A stretch of DNA of 25,880 bases from a virus: positions 1-25,880 of the IMG/VR virus record IMGVR_UViG_3300021139_000128; one strand, given 5' to 3'. The translations under genes were made by a program, and so were the position numbers. Within the stretch, counting starts at the first letter, position 1, and each line of letters begins with the position of its first letter. Shown piece by piece: positions 2,278-25,130 of the stretch. A model generated the notes under the pieces. It did no database searches and was not told the origin of the DNA. It saw nothing but the letters and a program-made list of their open reading frames with translations.

Positions 2278-5200
2278 TTATGGTCCTAATGAATAGTCAG
2301 GGACAATGTTTGAAGTAAAATCGGTTGTAATGCTTGGGTTAATGGTTGGTGCTGAAAGGGTTGGTGTAGCCACATTTCCCGCGTTCAAAGTTAAATTATC
2401 TGTTGAGGTGGTTCCTGTAAGAGATGGACTATCTGCTGTAAAGCCGCCACCGGGAACCGCAGTAGTCACCCCTGCGTTGTTAGTGATGGCTACATTATCT
2501 GTGCTGGTTAAGCCTGTTGTAGTGGTATTTAATGCAGGCGCACCAGCAGAAGGCGATGAACTTAAAATAGTACCGTTATTTTGTGAAACATAAGTCGTAC
2601 TGCCTCCCGTTGAAGGGTCAGTTACCGTGTATTGCCCGGTTACAGGGTCGGTAGTACCTCCGACAGGTGGCGCGGATGCGGCATAAGAACTGGTGCTTGT
2701 AGACGCAGGAGCACCAGAAGACCCAAGAGATTGGGGAATTATAGAACTTGAATTAACAGGTTGGGCGCTGCTCATACTTTGCGGAACAGTAGTTCCTGAT
2801 TTTCCCGCTACATACGAGAGGTCGTTCATTATGTTTGTAGCACCAGTGGTAGCTATGTTCCCTTGCGATACCATAGCGTTCGCATTGGCTTGGGCTGCGG
2901 TAGTGTTCCCTGTGTTGATTGCGTTTGCCGAACCTATTGTTGCGTTTCCTAAAGCATTTGCAGAACCTTGAATACCAGCCGCTGTTGCGTTTGCGGCTCC
3001 TGTAGTACCTGCTGCTGTAAAACCTGCGGCGGAATTATTGGCATTTGACGTTGCGGCAGCGGCGTTGGTGGTTGCGGTGGCGGCAGCGCTTCCGATAGCT
3101 TGTTGTATAGTTGCTGTGTTAATTCCTGCGTTTTGGAGAGCGTTAGAAATAGTATTTGCAGAGGCTTGACCAGTGGCAATAGCGTTTTGTAACCCAGACA
3201 AAGTGAGATTGTTTTGTTGGAGCCATTGATTGAAAGCGCTAACTTCCCATTGATTTGCCGTATTTTGTGCAAAAGTATCCAAGTTTTGAATGTTCGCAGA
3301 TGAAAGTTGAGTTCCTCCAACAGCGGCAGCGTTGTTAGTGGTTTGAAGTCCTTGTTGTAACGCGAACTGATAAGCAGGCATGACATTTCCCATGTCAGCC
3401 ATTGAGAAGGGAGTATTAAACTGTCCTCCAGGGGCAAGCCCTGCTGCAAGTTCTGTTGCCGCTTTTGTGCCAAGCGCTGTATAAGGTGCTTGGGCTTGCG
3501 TAATAGCAGGAACGATATTATTTATTGCTGTTTGCGCTTGATTAAGACCTTGAATGGTTTGCTGACCACCTAACGTATAAGCACCTGACATAGCCTGACC
3601 GCCAGCCTTAGCTGCGGCAGCTTGGGTCTGTGCGGCAGCAATGTCAGCCGCTGAAATGACTCCGGCAGATTGTGTTGCCGCATTACTAAGAATGTTTCCT
3701 TGTGCTATATCAGCCGCAGATAGATTTTGCCCTGCCGTGGTTGCCGCGTTAGCAATTAAATTGCCCGCAGATGCTGCATTGTTCATGGCATATACATCTG
3801 CCGCTGTAACTAATCCTGCTCCGATTAAAGTTGCAGTCACAGTGGGGCTAGTTAGTAAACCACTAAGCATCGTCCCTAATGCACTAAAGTTTCCACTTGC
3901 AACATCTGCGGCGGCAACGGTGGGATTAACACTTGATAAAGCCGACCAATCGGTTGAAGCCATTGACTGACCGTTAGAAGTCGCTTGTGATGCAATGCCA
4001 CTGATTAAAGAAGCAGTCCAACCTATTGCTGCCATGCTTGCGGCTGTTGCAGGGTCTATGGTTTGCCCTGCGGCGGCTGCTGCCGATACTATATCGGCTC
4101 CGGTACCTGGCGCTGTATTCATGGAAGATGGCGTGACGGTAGTCATAGGGGTTCCTCCAGTGGTACTTGTCCCACCTGTGGTTGAATTTGTTGAAGCGGG
4201 AGCGGTTGTTCCACTTGTTGAAGCGGGAGTGTTAGTTGCGTTTGTTGACATAGAAGTGGGAGCGGTTGTTCCAACTATGGCATTAGTTATAGCCCCCGTT
4301 ATAGGGTTAGTGACCATGCTCGGTATTCCAGAGCCGGAGGTTGCGGAATTAACCGCTCCGCTTACTGTCCCAGATATACCGCCTGTTAAAGCACTTGTCC
4401 CTACATTGCCACCTGTTACAGCGCCAGTTAAAGCGCCTACTCCTGCCCCTACAAGCCCAGAAGTAATAATGGGAGAGCCTGTAATTGAGTTTATAGCAGG
4501 GGCATTTTGGGCAACTTCAGCTCCTACACCAGAAGAAATAGCACCAGTAGCAGCACCAGTGAGAATATTCCCACCTGTAACGGCGGTTTTCAAAGCACCT
4601 GTAACCGCTCCTGTAACAGCAGCATTGGCAACGCTGCCTACGGTCAGTCCAGTGACGCTTTCTACCCCAGATGATAAAGACCCCAATAATCCTGCGGCAG
4701 CCCCACCTGCGCTTAAAGCCATAGGAATAGCCATTTCAAGAAACTGCCCAAGCCCGCTTTGGAAGAATCCTCCGGGGCTTCCGGGGGTATAAGTAAATTG
4801 TTGTGCTAAATTATTGATGGGTTGAATTACGCCACTGGAATTTGTAGCAACAACCCCGGATATAGAGCCTTCGCTTGAAGGATTATCAAATTGAATATTG
4901 TAAACACCCGGCTGACTGGCGTTAGGGGAAATTGCAATGTCGGGTGGAGTTTGGGTTGTGCTCATTGGATTATATGTTGGCAATGAACCCGGTATTAACT
5001 TTCCACTGCTATCTTGTATGCCAAATCCACTAATCGGCGTATAAACTTGGGAAGTAACGGGGTTCCCGTTGTCGTCTATACTGGTAACGGTTGCCATGTA
5101 CCCTTGCCCACCACTTCCTGAAGACATAGGGTTATAACCATTAGGGTTACTTATAATTTCAGAACCTGCTGGAGCAGCAACACCAGAAGCTGTAATTGGG

Positions 5201-5346: not shown

Positions 5347-5781
5347 TCAGTTACTCGCCATGATTTGCCAACTTGTGCCATCTGATTGCACAATAGCCCA
5401 TTTTCCCGCTGTTCCTGCAAGAATTGCGGTACTTGCAGACCCTCCAATTAAAGGAATAATGTTCGCGGTTGCAGACACAACTGTATTTGCTGTCACAGTC
5501 TTAATTAAGATACTTCTTCCCATATAGACCGATGCTAAAGGAAATGTCAGGGTAGAAGTGCCTGCGTAATTCACAACAATTGTTGCATCTGTTGTACCTA
5601 CGGAATAAGTGCTTGCCGTTACAGGTGAAATTTTATTAACCAAAGACGCAACCGGAAAAGACGATAAATACTGAAACAGAACATTAAACCACTTAGTCCA
5701 AATTTCAGTAAGTTTCATGCCCGCTTGTAATTTATAGTCACAAGGAGACAATGTTGGAGGGGGTCCTAGTTGGATACTCAT
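5347..5781 (-). CDS. Small structural protein of unknown function, tail region
   Basis: 144 residues. The first ~45 residues are helical (KLTEIWTKWFNVLFQYL). The rest is Val/Thr/Ala-rich and looks like beta sheet, as in small phage tail or fibre-associated proteins. There is no enzymatic motif. The ATG overlaps the TGA of the gp10-like gene (ATGA), so it is translationally coupled to that tail hub gene, and it is followed directly by the large ejection protein. A tail accessory role is plausible from position only. A fibre or spike adaptor is an alternative. Confidence 0.5.
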   Translation of the reverse strand: MSIQLGPPPTLSPCDYKLQAGMKLTEIWTKWFNVLFQYLSSFPVASLVNKISPVTASTYSVGTTDATIVVNYAGTSTLTFPLASVYMGRSILIKTVTANTVVSATANIIPLIGGSASTAILAGTAGKWAIVQSDGTSWQIMASN

Positions 5782-7220: not shown

Positions 7221-8173
7221 CAATCATCTCCGCACAAAAAGTATTCCGACCGTCTTTCTGGTTCTTTCATATGGGCAATGGCAATGGCTTTTTTGTAGTT
7301 ATCTTCCATATCGGTTGTCCAAATGGCTCTAAACATAGAATTGCCTTGTTTAGCCGTTTCCCAACAAAGAGCCAAATACCATTCAGCAGGATATTCAGGA
7401 TTATCTGTTGCGTAGTTAAAGTCTTGGATTTGTTCCAAATAAGTTAAGACAATGTACTTGGAAGTGTCCGAAGCCCCTGCACAGTCTGTATAGAGAGTTG
7501 TCTGACCAAGTTGAGTTTCCCAATAAATAGCGGTTGGGTCGGATATATAAGTAGCCTGAGTTTTAGTTGGTAGCGCGTCATACTCTTGGACATTCATCAT
7601 TTTCAAAGGCGTGTCGTTGTTCTGGTTGTCTCTTAACAGCGCGGTTTCAATGACATCAGGTTGTTGAGCATTAGAAGTATAGTCGTAGCACGTTGCCCCT
7701 GTAGAGGCTTGTGTCGGGACATTGGCATTTAAGGTAAGGGTGGTTCCTGCAACCAAAAGAATCGTTGTCCAAAAGATTACGCCAGAATCCAGTTCAATAC
7801 CAAAATTGTCTCCGTTGGTCATGCCCGTTGAGCTTGTTACTGTAACCGTGGGGCTTCCGCCTGCGTTGGTAGCAGTGGTTGTCGTGGAGACAAAGCTGTT
7901 TGCCCATTGACCAGTAGAAGGGCTTAATACATAACTATACTGATTGCCTTGCAAGAAGCAGTAGCCTCTTTTTCTTGTCCATGTTTTAAGACTTGCTGAC
8001 CCATCACCTTTTCCCGACCATTGCTTCACAATCATGTTTAATATTCGTGAAAGGTCGTTAGTCTCTGTGGGTGTTGGAACCTCAGTGTCATCTAATTTGC
8101 CAAGAAACAGCATTGCGGTACGGATAATATCATCACGCGAAACGGTGAACGAATATGTACCTGAAGTAGCCAT
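7220..8173 (-). CDS. Head-to-tail adaptor protein (P22 gp4-like by position)
   Basis: 317 residues. The N-terminal 60 residues are helical (VSRDDIIRTAMLFLGKLDD..., ILNMIVKQWSGKG), resembling head-completion/adaptor proteins that bind under the portal. The middle is a Thr/Ser/Val-rich beta domain (around 90-165). The C-terminal third returns to helix with YPAEWYLALCWETAKQ and ends in a short acidic tail. This helical-beta-helical layout, together with placement immediately before the gp10-like gene, fits an adaptor, although P22 gp4 itself is much shorter (about 166 residues). The start ATG overlaps the stop of the glycosyltransferase gene (TAATG), and the stop overlaps the start of the gp10-like gene. 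Function is inferred from context rather than from a recognised signature. Confidence 0.55.
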   Translation of the reverse strand: MATSGTYSFTVSRDDIIRTAMLFLGKLDDTEVPTPTETNDLSRILNMIVKQWSGKGDGSASLKTWTRKRGYCFLQGNQYSYVLSPSTGQWANSFVSTTTTATNAGGSPTVTVTSSTGMTNGDNFGIELDSGVIFWTTILLVAGTTLTLNANVPTQASTGATCYDYTSNAQQPDVIETALLRDNQNNDTPLKMMNVQEYDALPTKTQATYISDPTAIYWETQLGQTTLYTDCAGASDTSKYIVLTYLEQIQDFNYATDNPEYPAEWYLALCWETAKQGNSMFRAIWTTDMEDNYKKAIAIAHMKEPERRSEYFLCGDD

Positions 8174-9744
8174 TACGCAACCTCTTTCAGTTTACGGTCA
8201 ATAAATAATTCAAGATGGTAATAACATTCATCAATAGTGATGTCGGCTTGGCATTGAGCGGTTCCGCTACCTTCATCTTTTGTGCAATAGTCCCACCCAT
8301 AATGTAATTGGTGGCAAGTAGGGGCTTCATTGTTTCCACGCCCTTTACACTTGGTTTCTTTTGAAGAAAGAGAAATTGTATTCACCCAATCGCGTGTCAA
8401 GTTTTCTTCCGTAGAATGAGACAGGAATATAAGTTTTGGAACCTCCTCATGGGAGGCTGCATTAAGAACTCCGGTTTCAGGACCCATGACCAAATCCGCT
8501 TCTGTAATAAACGATAACGTCTGGCGAATTGACCATTTTCCGCAAGTCAGATGGACGCGAGGTTCTTTTTCCCAACCCGCTTCAAGAATGACGGCTTCAG
8601 GACCACCACATAAAACAACATCTACGTCCTTGTAGTTGAGCATGAGTGCTGCCAAGATTGCGTCAAGTCCCGCCCATGTCTTATGAACTGACGAACCCGC
8701 AAGACTCCACAGGATTACATACTTGCCCATTTTGGCTCTGGTTTTTCTTGCCCATTCTTTTTCTTCTGGTTTGGGATAGAATTTTACTTGAGGGTCGTGC
8801 GGAACCCCCGCAAGCAAATGCTGGAACTCAAGGTAGTTGTAATTCATAACAGCGTGTCGTGCGGCAGGTGCGAAGGCGTGTGTAGACCTTCCTTGCAAGG
8901 CGAGAAATGTCCCTTCTACTGATTCAGAAAGGTTGATGAATTTGTCATAGTTCTTTGCTTGGTGTCTCCAGAATGAACCTAAGTCTCCATTGGGTATCTG
9001 GTCTTTATCCAGAATCATAAACTCGTCAATGTTAGGGTCAGTAAGAACCACATCAATACCTGGTGGCGAAGTCATTAAAGTGATATGCCAACCTTGCTTT
9101 TTAAGCCCTGCAAAAACAGAAGACGCTTGCATCAAGTCTCCAAAGGCTCCAAACCTGCATATCAAAATCCGTTTCTCATGCTTTGGTTTCAGGTAACTTT
9201 TATTGTGAAATTTCCCATGTTGTTTCTTAAAGACCAGAAGAAACGAATATTCTTTGTCTTCGTTTCGTTCCTGACATTCCAATAAGTCCCAACCGCCACC
9301 CGTAACGCTTTCCATAGCATCAATGATGTCTTTTGGCAGGAAGTCGTGCTTATGGTCATTATTGGCGTATTCCGTTCCAACATTGGGGTAAAAGTCTTTA
9401 TGCGGAAGGTATAAAGCTAAAATACCGTCAAACTTGATGACTCTCCACCATTCTTGAAGGGCGGCTTTGTAATCTACAATATGTTCTAAAAGGTGCGATG
9501 AAAACACGAAGTCCATAGACTGCGTGGCAAAAATATCCAGTTTTTCCCCTGATTGCACTCTTACATCAGGTATTATCGGGTGTCCAAAAATCTCTTTATC
9601 GGCACAGTTGTCCACCGATATGGCTTGGGGCAGAATCTTGAACATTCCTGCCCCAATGTCTATTCCCCGTCCTTTCAAATAAGGCGCAACTTCCCAAACG
9701 ATTTTCTTTGCTTCGTTGCACATCGGGTCATCTTTACTCCACAT
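8173..9744 (-). CDS. Fusion of SAM methyltransferase and GT9 (heptosyltransferase-like) glycosyltransferase
   Basis: 523 residues with two domains. Residues 1-175 are a class I SAM-dependent methyltransferase (Methyltransf_11 type): motif I GIDIGAG (27-33), SSHLLEHI (82-89) and a WWRVIKFDGILALYLPH strand. From about 191 the sequence RILICRFGAFGDLM (192-205) starts a glycosyltransferase family 9 fold, with a nucleotide-sugar C-terminal domain (WSLAGSSVHKTW, VVLCGGPEA) and GPETG (421-425), the GT9 counterpart of GPDTG. GT9 enzymes transfer heptose or related sugars in lipopolysaccharide synthesis. The last 70 residues carry five cysteines that might bind a metal. GAGG 8 bases upstream supports the ATG. 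Cargo of this kind in a structural operon could modify the virion surface, host envelope glycans or a phage-made glycan; the substrate is unknown. Confidence 0.85.
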   Translation of the reverse strand: MWSKDDPMCNEAKKIVWEVAPYLKGRGIDIGAGMFKILPQAISVDNCADKEIFGHPIIPDVRVQSGEKLDIFATQSMDFVFSSHLLEHIVDYKAALQEWWRVIKFDGILALYLPHKDFYPNVGTEYANNDHKHDFLPKDIIDAMESVTGGGWDLLECQERNEDKEYSFLLVFKKQHGKFHNKSYLKPKHEKRILICRFGAFGDLMQASSVFAGLKKQGWHITLMTSPPGIDVVLTDPNIDEFMILDKDQIPNGDLGSFWRHQAKNYDKFINLSESVEGTFLALQGRSTHAFAPAARHAVMNYNYLEFQHLLAGVPHDPQVKFYPKPEEKEWARKTRAKMGKYVILWSLAGSSVHKTWAGLDAILAALMLNYKDVDVVLCGGPEAVILEAGWEKEPRVHLTCGKWSIRQTLSFITEADLVMGPETGVLNAASHEEVPKLIFLSHSTEENLTRDWVNTISLSSKETKCKGRGNNEAPTCHQLHYGWDYCTKDEGSGTAQCQADITIDECYYHLELFIDRKLKEVA

Positions 9745-12212: not shown

Positions 12213-12644
12213 TTAAGCCAAACTGTCCCATTTGACGATGCGGCAGTTACTTGCCAAAGAGTGAACAATTCCGAATCCACCCAAATAATACCAAGCAACG
12301 CCTTTGCTTCGCCCGTAATCCGTGGGAATTTTCCCACGCATTTCTTCAGGAGTCGCAATAGCTTCAGCCACAGTGTCATTTCCAAAGAAGAATATCCAAT
12401 CGGAATTTCCCTTTGCCCATGCCGTCATATCACCACCGTTCGCAGTCGAGATACCCGTAGTGCCGATACCCTTGGCAATATTGGTTTGCTCAACATAACG
12501 CACGTTCTCGTACCGTCCGATTTCGCCATTCATAATCAGCTTGAAACCAGTATCCGAATATTGATGGATGGTTTCCAAGTTGTTTTTGAATGAACGCAAG
12601 GTCGTAGGCCAAGCCAGAGCATAGTAATCATCACCCAAATAAGC
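12213..12644 (-). CDS. Capsid protein exon 4 (C-terminal 143 residues)
   Basis: Encodes AYLGDDYYALAWPTTLR through IGRYENVRYVEQ, SDWIFFFGNDTVAEA, EEMRGKIP and YYLGGFGIVH to KWDSLA, then TAA. This is the most conserved part of the N4-gp56-like capsid family and fixes the assignment. The frame stays open upstream into the intron by chance; the exon begins at GCT after the intron's last base, G. Confidence 0.85.
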   Translation of the reverse strand, partial: AYLGDDYYALAWPTTLRSFKNNLETIHQYSDTGFKLIMNGEIGRYENVRYVEQTNIAKGIGTTGISTANGGDMTAWAKGNSDWIFFFGNDTVAEAIATPEEMRGKIPTDYGRSKGVAWYYLGGFGIVHSLASNCRIVKWDSLA

Positions 12645-14737
12645 CTTATATTTTCGCACTGGTTCGTTATTTCCAGTACCGCCGGGTTGGTGATTTCCGG
12701 CTGCTTCAGCTTTCACTGAAGAAAAGACTATATCATCAGTCGCTTCTATGGTATGATGCGACTGTTGCATCCTTCCGCTCACTTGAGCGTACTCCCCGTA
12801 GGGATAGTCGTTGAACGTTAACCGTGAGGTCTTATTATGGAACCAACCATTGCTGCTTATATTGCCGGAGTTATTGATGGGGAAGGTTGTATCCGTATTG
12901 GAAAATTCCCTGCTCCTAAAAGAACAACTCATGGATTTCAGTTCCGTGTGATTGTTGAAATCACTATGTGCGAAAGGCAAACTATTGAATTTATCGCCCA
13001 TCAAACAAATCGGAACATTCAACTCCGAAAACTCAAATCCGGCAAAACTGCTTACAAAGTCGTTTTCTACAATTCCTTCGCTTACAATTTGCTTATTGAT
13101 ACCCTTCCTTTTATTCAAGGGAAGAAACTTCAAGCCGAGGCTTGTATCGAGTGCCACAAATTGATGCCCGGTAGAGGGAAAGACCTCACCATTGAAGCTG
13201 TCAAAGAAATCAATCGAATCCGCGACCATGTTAGTTGGCTCAAGACCTTGGAGGCTCTTCGCTGCTGATTGCCCAATCCTGCAAATTTTCATACCATCAC
13301 GCTCACTGTTTCCAGTCACGTTGTGGTTTTGCGAGGCTCTAAGGGTGTTCCAGCAATTCATGCAATTTTCATTGGTCGCTTACGCGGCCATGCCCCCAAG
13401 TTCATACCAAGGGATATTTCTTTCTTTCATCAAATCCACAATGCTCTTAGCGTGTGCATTGCCGTAAGCGATGGAATTAGTACCAGTGACAGTACCATTG
13501 GTATACAAGGTAACGGCAGCAGTATCAGTTCCGGCTACAGGAATTGCACGAAGCAAGGTTTGGTTGAATTGCGTCCAAGCCAAACGGTCAAAAGTCTTGA
13601 CTGCATCGTTTTTCAACACTTTTTGCACAAGCTCCATCACAGGGAATTTAGACAGATTATCTAATTTGGCTGAGAACGGAACACTATTTCCAGCCTCAGT
13701 AATCGTCAAAGTACCTTGAACGATAGTGAAGTTGGTTTCTGGCATGGTGTTAGTTTCAGTAATCACCCCACCAGCGGTTGCTACATCTGAGAATACATCC
13801 CATGTAAAGATATCACCTTTCTTTTTGCCTTGTTGAGAGGCATCTCGTACATCACAAAATTGCATCCTGTTACCCCTCTGTTTCCAGAGTGAGCCGGTCA
13901 TTTCTGCCGACTTCTACGGATTTCGCCGTAGATCAGAGCACATCATCACCTATGCGGTGCAACGCTCAAGCTCGTTGAGGACTCTCTTTACAGTATTCGG
14001 ATTGCTCCGTTTCGTAATTTTGTAGAAGTCTGCGACTACTTGAAGGTCTTCACGATCAATTTTCAGGTTACGATGGTTTCCACCGTTATCCTTAATTTTC
14101 TCGAATCGCCTTGCCAAATAACGAATCATTAAATCCGCTCTATGACTTTTATCGCCGCACATATGCGGTCTGATAATGCGAAGTACCTTCAATCCGTCTT
14201 CCAATCCCTTCATCAGCAAACTTAACATTGATGCTGTTGGCATATAATGTCCGCCCTCACGCATCATAGGTTTCTGATCCCTCTCCTTGACATAATAACC
14301 AACGTCAAGTTGATCTAAAATTCTAGTTGCCTTGTTAATAATTCCAGCATCCGTATTATAGATCACGATTGAGGTCTGAACTTTGAGATTGCACCCTCTA
14401 TCCTTACGATCATAAGCATTCATTGATAGACTTCCTTCACCTTCTATAATTCCAGCCAACCATCCAATGTCTGCTTCTGTAAGAGTTGCCTGCTGATTAT
14501 CCATTGTTGTATCCTTTTTAGTTTCACGTATTAGTCAAAAAGGTTTTAGGAACTTCCAGCATATCGCGTTGTTTTAGTTCCGCAATTTTGTTTACGGAAC
14601 TTGACAAGTGGTTGTACCGCCATCCGTAGTACATTGCTCAGTTGGCGCGAATACATATAGCCCATTTCTTTCACTTGTCATATTCTCGGCAGCTATCGTT
14701 TACCGAGACTGTTTACTGCCCATACCTGACCAGCCAT
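12213..14737 (-). CDS. Major capsid protein (N4-gp56-like), split gene of four exons
   Basis: The whole gene, spliced as exon 1 (14737-14702), exon 2 (14662-14594), exon 3 (13862-13410) and exon 4 (12644-12213), would give about 329 residues, normal for this capsid family. The joined protein reads MAGQVWAVNSLG / GYMYSRQL...VKFR / QFCDVRDASQQG...ERNIP / AYLGDDYYALAW...KWDSLA, with no missing or extra residue at any junction against the family pattern as I know it. All three junctions fall between codons. AAGGAGG lies 6 bases before the ATG. It follows the scaffold-like gene. The protein forms the icosahedral head shell. Two of the interruptions are group I introns with endonucleases; the first is a 39-nt element with no core. 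Confidence 0.85.
12645..13409 (-). ncRNA. Group I intron 2 of the capsid gene (third interruption), with antisense endonuclease
   Basis: 765 nt. Core elements read on the minus strand: P, AATTGCTGGAA (13358-13348); Q, TTGGGCAATCAGCAGC (13276-13261); R, GTTCAACGACTAT (12816-12804); S, GATGATATAGTC (12737-12726). GACTAT and ATAGTC pair as P7. GCTC/GAGC and TCCC/GGGGA hairpins after R look like the extra P7.1/P7.2 of subgroup IA. The 5' exon ends ...ATCCCT with UCCCU pairing to GGGGG (P1, U-G at the site). The intron ends in G before GCT. P10 is weak here, so the 5' boundary is less sure than for the other intron, though it is fixed by the protein alignment. Confidence 0.8.
12837..13268 (+). CDS. 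LAGLIDADG homing endonuclease, antisense inside intron
   Basis: 143 residues with one LAGLIDADG motif, YIAGVIDGEGCIRI (8-21), so it would work as a homodimer. Such enzymes cut intron-less alleles at the insertion site and so spread the intron. Its orientation is opposite to the capsid gene and to nearly all of the window. GTGAGG lies 7 bases before the ATG. The ORF fills the P6 region of the intron, between Q and R: its TGA (13266-13268) lies within the complement of the Q element and its ATG is 20 bases from R. It cannot be translated from the capsid transcript and needs its own rightward promoter, which I could not identify with confidence. Confidence 0.85.
   Translation: MEPTIAAYIAGVIDGEGCIRIGKFPAPKRTTHGFQFRVIVEITMCERQTIEFIAHQTNRNIQLRKLKSGKTAYKVVFYNSFAYNLLIDTLPFIQGKKLQAEACIECHKLMPGRGKDLTIEAVKEINRIRDHVSWLKTLEALRC
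13410..13862 (-). CDS. Capsid protein exon 3 (151 residues)
   Basis: Encodes QFCDVRDASQQGKKKGDIFTW through SDVATAGG, NSVPFSAKLDNLSK and LLRAIPVAGT to MKERNIP. Family capsid proteins continue from NIP to (A/P)Y..DDYYA, which resumes exactly at exon 4. The frame stays open for ten more codons past the exon and then stops in the intron. Confidence 0.85.
13863..14593 (-). ncRNA. Group I intron 1 of the capsid gene (second interruption), with sense endonuclease
   Basis: 731 nt. P1 is perfect: exon AGUUCCGU (14601-14594) pairs with intron GCGGAACU (14583-14576), 8 bp with U-G at the splice site. P10 is also perfect: intron CAAAAUUG pairs with the first bases of exon 3, CAAUUUUG. Core elements: P, ATATGCTGGAA (14564-14554); Q, AATCAGCAGG (14498-14489); R, CTCAACGAGCTTG (13979-13967); S, GATGATGTGCTC (13947-13936). 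GAGC/GCTC gives P7. The intron ends in G (13863). Q and R both lie inside the endonuclease reading frame, so coding and ribozyme sequences overlap at both ends. Confidence 0.88.
13950..14504 (-). CDS. LAGLIDADG homing endonuclease, sense orientation in intron
   Basis: 184 residues with a single motif, WLAGIIEGEGSLSMN (15-29), so probably a homodimeric LAGLIDADG enzyme. It would cut the intron-less capsid gene near the FR/QF junction and drive intron homing. AAGGA lies 7 bases before the ATG. The first codons overlap ribozyme element Q and the last codons (VLNELE) overlap element R, so the ORF sits in P6. Sequence outside the motif shares little with the antisense endonuclease of the next intron, so the two look independently acquired. 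Confidence 0.88.
   Translation of the reverse strand: MDNQQATLTEADIGWLAGIIEGEGSLSMNAYDRKDRGCNLKVQTSIVIYNTDAGIINKATRILDQLDVGYYVKERDQKPMMREGGHYMPTASMLSLLMKGLEDGLKVLRIIRPHMCGDKSHRADLMIRYLARRFEKIKDNGGNHRNLKIDREDLQVVADFYKITKRSNPNTVKRVLNELERCTA
14594..14662 (-). CDS. Capsid protein exon 2 (23-codon micro-exon)
   Basis: 69 bases encoding GYMYSRQLSNVLRM and AVQPLVKFR, matching the N-terminal arm of N4-gp56-like capsid proteins (GG(Y/F)MYS ... QPLVKFRQF). It is bounded by a 39-nt interruption upstream and the 731-nt intron downstream. The first codon GGC lies directly after the G that would end the upstream element. Confidence 0.85.
14663..14701 (-). other. 39-nt in-frame interruption with group I P1/P10 but no core
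   Basis: Reads AAACGATAGCTGCCGAG then 22 more bases ending in ATG, on the minus strand. It falls between codon 12 (GGT) and codon 13 (GGC) of the capsid protein and has in-frame TAG and TGA. The preceding exon end CTCGGT pairs with GCCGAG inside it (six pairs, U-G at the junction) as in a group I P1. ATAGCT pairs with the following exon GGCTAT as in P10. The last base is G. No P, Q, R or S element is present. Possibilities are the remains of a deleted intron, a translational bypass element, or a leader before an internal start (GTG at 14674 or ATG at 14665, no clear SD). Confidence 0.7.
14702..14737 (-). CDS. Capsid protein exon 1 (12 codons)
   Basis: MAGQVWAVNSLG, the usual first residues of this capsid family. 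The SD is AAGGAGG, 6 bases before the ATG. Read through without splicing, translation would stop two codons later at TAG, giving a 14-residue peptide. Confidence 0.8.
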
Positions 14738-24825: not shown

Positions 24826-25130
24826 GCATGCCGCGGGGTATATGGCATGGCGTATGGTGTGTGCCAGCATAGGGTATGGCGTATGCGTAGGGCATGGTGC
24901 ATGGGTCATGGCATAGGGCATGGCGTATGGTGTAGGTCATGGCGTTACCGCGTAGGTCATGGCAGCGTTACCGCATGGGCATAGGGCATGGCGTATGGCG
25001 TTACCGCATGGGGTGGGGCATAGGGCATGGGGTGGGGTGGGATAGGTAGGCAGAGCGCATGGCGTTGCAGCTGGCGCATGGGGCATGGTATAGGGCATGG
25101 CGCATGGGGTACGGTGTGGGATATATCCCT
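24826..25130. repeat. G/T-rich CATGG-type degenerate repeat block
   Basis: A degenerate repeat. GGCATGGCGTATGG occurs exactly at 24844-24857, 24917-24930 and 24985-24998. GCGTTACCGC occurs at 24942-24951, 24965-24974 and 24998-25007. Many GGGCATGG and GGTCATGGC words lie between. The plus strand is strongly G and T over C. No gene is supported inside it. Confidence 0.8.

Follow-up and report, generated by a model that had tools for sequence, protein, structure and literature searches.

The stretch analyzed here (the window) is the full 25,880 nt of IMG/VR record IMGVR_UViG_3300021139_000128, in which the head gene cluster lies on the minus strand. The capsid gene of this cluster is laid out in four exons, interrupted by a 39-nt insert and two group I introns. 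Its features, in the direction of transcription, are as follows:

14702 to 14737, minus strand: capsid exon 1a, MAGQVWAVNSLG, with the ATG at 14737 and a Shine-Dalgarno sequence AAGGAGG upstream
14702 to 14707, minus strand: 5' splice-site half of the insert's P1, CTCGGT, identical in contig L071
14663 to 14701, minus strand: 39-nt insert, AAACGATAGCTGCCGAGAATATGACAAGTGAAAGAAATG, with in-frame TAG and TGA; a homologous 39-nt insert lies at positions 3173 to 3211 of L071
14691 to 14696, minus strand: P10 guide strand ATAGCT, which reads GAAGCC in L071
14685 to 14690, minus strand: P1 guide strand GCCGAG, whose G pairs with the exon-terminal U; identical in L071
14663 to 14684, minus strand: tail of the putative mini-intron, 22 nt, its last base being the terminal G; 14 of 21 positions identical to L071
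14657 to 14662, minus strand: 3' exon half of P10, GGCTAT, which reads GGCTTC in L071, a compensatory change
14594 to 14662, minus strand: capsid exon 1b, GYMYSRQLSNVLRMAVQPLVKFR, starting GGC TAT
13863 to 14593, minus strand: intron 1, a full group I intron of 731 nt with P1 GTTCCGT/GCGGAAC, the proposed source of a helper core
13950 to 14504, minus strand: LAGLIDADG-like homing endonuclease ORF of intron 1, with a weak match to Pfam LAGLIDADG_1 below the cut-off
13898 to 13982, minus strand: P7-P3'-P8-P7'-P9 portion of the intron 1 core, matched by the core model
13410 to 13862, minus strand: capsid exon 2
12645 to 13409, minus strand: intron 2, the second group I intron of the capsid gene, 765 nt, with boundaries taken from the alignment with L071
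12837 to 13268, plus strand: LAGLIDADG-like ORF within intron 2
12213 to 12644, minus strand: capsid exon 3 and the stop codon, ending at 12213

Joined, the four exons encode a stop-free protein of 329 aa, which matches the major head protein of PHROG 1357 and shares ~50% identity with capsid proteins from phages of Vibrio and Escherichia. The two LAGLIDADG-like ORFs differ in orientation relative to the capsid gene, that of intron 2 being antisense and that of intron 1 sense. Elsewhere in the window, an ORF at 8173-9744 on the minus strand, inside the structural gene cluster, reads like a fusion of a methyltransferase and a glycosyltransferase (by reading only), and a degenerate tandem repeat cluster with GCGTATGGCATAGGGCATG-like units of ~19-22 nt occupies positions 24845-25037, near the contig end.

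An earlier, sequence-only reading of the window had placed 39 nt with in-frame TAG and TGA between capsid codons 12 and 13, and had recognized in them the P1, P10 and terminal G of a group I intron. The coordinates are confirmed and every one of the pairings is present. Translated in frame, the insert gives KR*LPRI*QVKEM. P1 comprises 6 bp closing on the U·G pair, or 7 bp if the next U-A is counted; P10 likewise has 6 bp, and the guide strands of the two helices are directly adjacent. A P1 with an adjacent P10 arises by chance in 11 of 1,000,000 shuffles of the window insert with the exons held fixed, and in 19 of 1,000,000 shuffles of the L071 insert. A blind scan of all loci for the P1/P10 motif returned 82 matches against 76 in the control, and we claim no further mini-intron candidates from it. 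Since the blind scan does not discriminate, the significance of the motif derives from its sitting exactly on an insertion point that is defined independently by the relatives. The catalytic core P3-P9 with the P7 guanosine site is absent from the insert, which has no match to our core model of the intron 1 family. The inserts of the two lineages that carry one are without stable internal structure when folded alone (0 and -1.4 kcal/mol), and folding reveals no conserved internal helix, hence no P7, in the insert of either. When the flanks are included the P1 hairpin forms, with unremarkable z-scores (-1.4 and -0.2); no P9.0 could be assigned in the mini-intron. By the core test the insert is thus not an autocatalytic group I intron, while its splice-site rules and apparent descent mark it as group I-like.

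Two more IMG/VR contigs, from other metagenomes, carry the insert region at 99.9% identity. At the equivalent codon boundary, a 39-nt insert of its own is present in a diverged phage (L071/L087, IMG/VR 3300037361_000036), in the context CTCGGT^TAAATTGAAGCCGCCGAGATGATTACAAGCGAGAAATCG^GGCTTC. The presence of the insert in three assemblies, together with a separate 39-nt version in a diverged phage, shows that we are not dealing with a one-off assembly error. The L071 insert also ends in G and its P1 is unchanged from the window. Its P10 reads GAAGCC/GGCTTC: two pairs differ in both strands and a U·G is replaced by C-G, and swapping a P10 strand between the window and L071 breaks the pairing either way. 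The capsid proteins of the two phages are 91% identical, and the four-fold sites of their capsid genes are identical at 47 of 139 positions (8 of 28 in the middle of the endonuclease gene). The mini-intron retains 25 identical bases out of 38 aligned (P ~6e-5 against the silent rate), and its tail past P1 retains 14 of 21 (P ~0.002). With silent sites saturated, this degree of identity indicates long-standing retention of the mini-intron. Exon 1a differs between the two phages in five codons, all synonymously, and the Shine-Dalgarno sequence before it is kept in both, so residues 1 to 12 continue to belong to the capsid protein.

Gly-Gly stands at this position in every one of the 85 distinct uninterrupted relatives, in agreement with the two glycines that the earlier reading had ascribed to the family, and exact removal of the 39 nt would therefore restore the family sequence. 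The expectation that precisely 39 nt are removed is further backed by the compensatory P10 of L071 and by full introns at almost the same site. Full introns at the insertion site had been suggested as something to look for in related phages; a search using the intron 1 endonuclease did recover such introns, though three or four bases downstream of that site. In four relatives, L088, L089, L113 and L198, this capsid gene is interrupted by a complete group I intron that belongs to the intron 1 family and includes an endonuclease gene. The introns near the mini-intron site are positioned as follows:

L088: full intron at GG^Y, with P1 and P10 of 6 bp each
L113 (a contig of a Rhizobiales MAG): full intron at GG^Y, with P1 and P10 of 6 bp each
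L089: full intron one base later than GG^Y
L198/L201: full intron near the mini-intron site; P10 of L198 weak by eye

The mini-intron and the nearby full introns share a common layout of exon U^(U)AA, the P10 strand, and G plus the P1 strand. The mini-intron is best read as the P1/P10 end and the 3' end of a full intron of this nearby type, with the middle deleted. In L090, a full intron occupies the site of the window's intron 1 and the first site is empty. We found no phage with a full intron at each of the two sites, as would be expected of the ancestor. Among phage GenBank records, 47 have a related capsid gene in one piece, and the nearest match to the endonuclease is only 24% identical. 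Two contigs (L052, 3200-4000; L053, 246-1046) contain an insertion of ~800 nt elsewhere in the same capsid gene, at GKKKGD^IFTW, with the mini-intron site empty. Introns or endonucleases of the intron 1 family also lie beside other phage structural genes (L196, 1998-2044; L200, 11781-11831; L086, ~3900-4620), which means that the family is not limited to one capsid type.

At the gathering threshold Rfam reports nothing in the window. By E-value it recovers intron 2 (Intron_gpI, 37 bits, E 3e-7, below the gathering score) and matches intron 1 as a fragment only. Rfam being too insensitive for the intron 1 family, we built our own core model from L088, L090, L113, L198, L196 and L200, leaving out the window and L071. 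The model finds a single core in the window (13982-13898, 73 bits) and a single core in L087 (72 bits), both within intron 1, which makes intron 1 the sole core of its family found by the model in either insert-bearing contig. Intron 1 is a complete group I intron, in which P1, P10 and the P7/P8/P9 core are all present, and its P1 is of 7 bp including the U·G, the same as that of the mini-intron. The earlier reading was right to call it a real intron, but its distance from the insert is 70 nt, with a start at 14593, and not the 100 bases given there. A further contig, L094, has two matches to the core model ~870 nt apart (4496-4590, 39.7 bits; 5367-5457, a weak 18.5 bits), possibly representing two related introns close together.

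The insert is carried by two lineages only, and both also have intron 1, 70 nt downstream; none of the relatives without intron 1 has the insert. When 2.9 million viral contigs were scanned for copies of exon 1b whose preceding codon begins with a base other than G, only these two lineages came up. L044, the sister of L071 in the capsid tree (support 96/86), lacks both the insert and intron 1. This placement implies that the insert and intron 1 were gained or lost together more than once. The link between them could also be explained by homing with co-conversion over 70 nt, with no functional dependence, and this option, given the short spacing, is the main weakness of the helper claim. Specific pairing of the mini-intron tail with intron 1 does not rise above that of shuffled tails. 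Intron 2 is a different group I intron from the intron 1 family, and since it is missing in L071 it is not a common helper.

Removal of the insert at the RNA level is well supported by the sequence comparisons. A core-deleted intron and splicing helped in trans had been put forward as separate options; we favor both, as two parts of one model, under which the 39 nt are likely a group I intron that lacks a core and depends for its splicing on the ribozyme of the neighboring intron 1. The locus would then probably represent a natural two-part group I system, consisting of a 39-nt coreless satellite intron with its own guide and a neighbor whose ribozyme splices it; we infer the identity of intron 1 as the helper. 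In the proposed mechanism, the upstream exon and the insert would form P1, with the U·G wobble marking the 5' splice site, while the adjacent guide bases would form P10 with the downstream exon and the terminal G would mark the 3' splice site. The P1/P10 duplex of the mini-intron would dock into the intron 1 core, replacing intron 1's own P1; intron 1 may act on the same transcript before leaving it, or the released intron may act in trans. Exogenous guanosine would cut after Gly12 while P10 holds the downstream exon, after which the terminal G would occupy the guanosine site and the exons would be joined. The two transesterifications would bring Gly codons 12 and 13 together and put the capsid gene back in frame. 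The mini-intron probably originated by internal deletion of a full intron once present at or beside the site, and the core may have been dispensable because another member of the family was available for catalysis. We infer this order of events.

The insert might instead be removed by group I chemistry that does not involve intron 1, through a minimal ribozyme that the insert forms with parts of the exons, as claimed for fungal introns of 63-75 nt, or through another core or a host factor. P1, P10 and the terminal G would serve such a route equally, and a 67-nt intron with P1, P7 and P10 only has been reported to splice in vitro (PMC3160393). The phage insert, however, lacks a stable fold and hence a P7 of the fungal type, so that a self-splicing insert would be without a guanosine site; intron 2, the other core at hand, is missing in L071, and the insert is seen only together with intron 1. 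We regard this route as unlikely. That a full intron collapsed during assembly, or that the capsid gene is defective, is hardly credible: although all data are metagenome assemblies, the three that hold the insert agree at 99.9% identity, and the diverged lineage has the same length and a compensatory change. Collapse, named earlier as what would refute the mini-intron, is ruled out to the extent that sequence allows.

Two further explanations leave the insert in the message. T4 gene 60 bypass uses a nascent-peptide signal, and in a bypass of this type the ribosome would leave GGU (codon 12), skip 39 nt and land on GGC. Both codons are read by tRNA-Gly with anticodon GCC (take-off GGT and landing GGC are synonymous, not identical), the take-off codon lies within a hairpin in both lineages, and in L071 a stop codon, TAA, directly follows it. 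In the window, by contrast, the take-off codon is followed by AAA CGA and not by a stop, and with only 12 residues made at take-off there would be little nascent peptide to carry a gene 60-type signal. The product would moreover lose one Gly that is invariant in the 85 distinct relatives, and bypass predicts neither the covariation of P10 nor the presence of complete group I introns so close by. Bypass, one of the options first listed for the insert, therefore appears improbable. Still less probable is that the insert is kept and the capsid starts inside or just after it, at a GTG or ATG in the insert or at Met 15. In favor of this option, the window insert has a GTG and an ATG in frame at its 3' end, but the end of the L071 insert has no in-frame ATG or GTG. 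There is also no Shine-Dalgarno sequence there, whereas the normal start has one in both phages, and exon 1a is under purifying selection.

The phage group I introns with LAGLIDADG endonucleases that make up the intron 1 family resemble the mini-intron in the U·G of P1, in P10 and in the terminal G, and have in common with it the host gene, the insertion area and the order of exon U, (U)AA, P10 and P1. They measure 731-755 nt, whereas the mini-intron measures 39 nt and is without P2-P9 and the endonuclease gene. The group III introns of euglenids are shortened, are thought to rely on trans-acting ribozyme parts, and are derived from group II introns of the chloroplast; they are thus similar to the mini-intron in the proposed reliance in trans, but differ in descent and location. 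In engineered group I spliceozymes (PMC4094466) and trans-excision-splicing ribozymes (reviewed in PMC6155759), a core acts on a short insert in another RNA. As proposed for the phage, a group I core there excises a short coreless insert and joins the flanks; these systems, however, are man-made and the guide is supplied by the ribozyme, while the proposed substrate here carries its own P1/P10 guide. Degenerate group I introns of 63-78 nt with P1, P7 and P10 are found in the SSU rRNA of Phialophora and lichens (PMC3160393). They share the group I origin, have most of the core deleted and keep P1 and P10. Unlike the mini-intron, they also retain P7 as well as base pairing to the 3' exon, have a final U and reside in fungal rRNA, and one intron of this type is reported to splice without a helper (PMC3160393). 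The phage element is shorter, lacks P7, ends in G, and lies in a phage protein gene beside a full relative. The T4 gene 60 gap and the byps of Magnusiomyces (PMC5009743) are likewise short stop-containing inserts with the take-off codon in a hairpin, but are handled by the ribosome, lose one codon at landing, and are without P10 covariation or a parent group I intron. Searches of a literature that included few subscription papers, aimed at natural group I introns without a core that are spliced with help in trans, turned up the engineered cases and the fungal mini-introns only.

Given its missing core, its splice-site rules and its apparent descent, we file the mini-intron as a putative helper-dependent variant of the group I intron. 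If the model is true, the element would be shorter than the smallest group I introns in the literature searched (63-75 nt, PMC3160393). It would provide a case of a natural group I ribozyme splicing another intron out of a message, and thus a natural counterpart of the engineered spliceozyme, open to study in a small phage gene. It would also parallel, among group I introns, the transition by which self-splicing introns gave way to a common splicing apparatus. The spliceosome is proposed to have arisen from group II introns through such a loss of an intron's own catalysis. The capsid gene of these phages would then demonstrate that an intron deprived of its catalytic part can survive on that of its neighbor.
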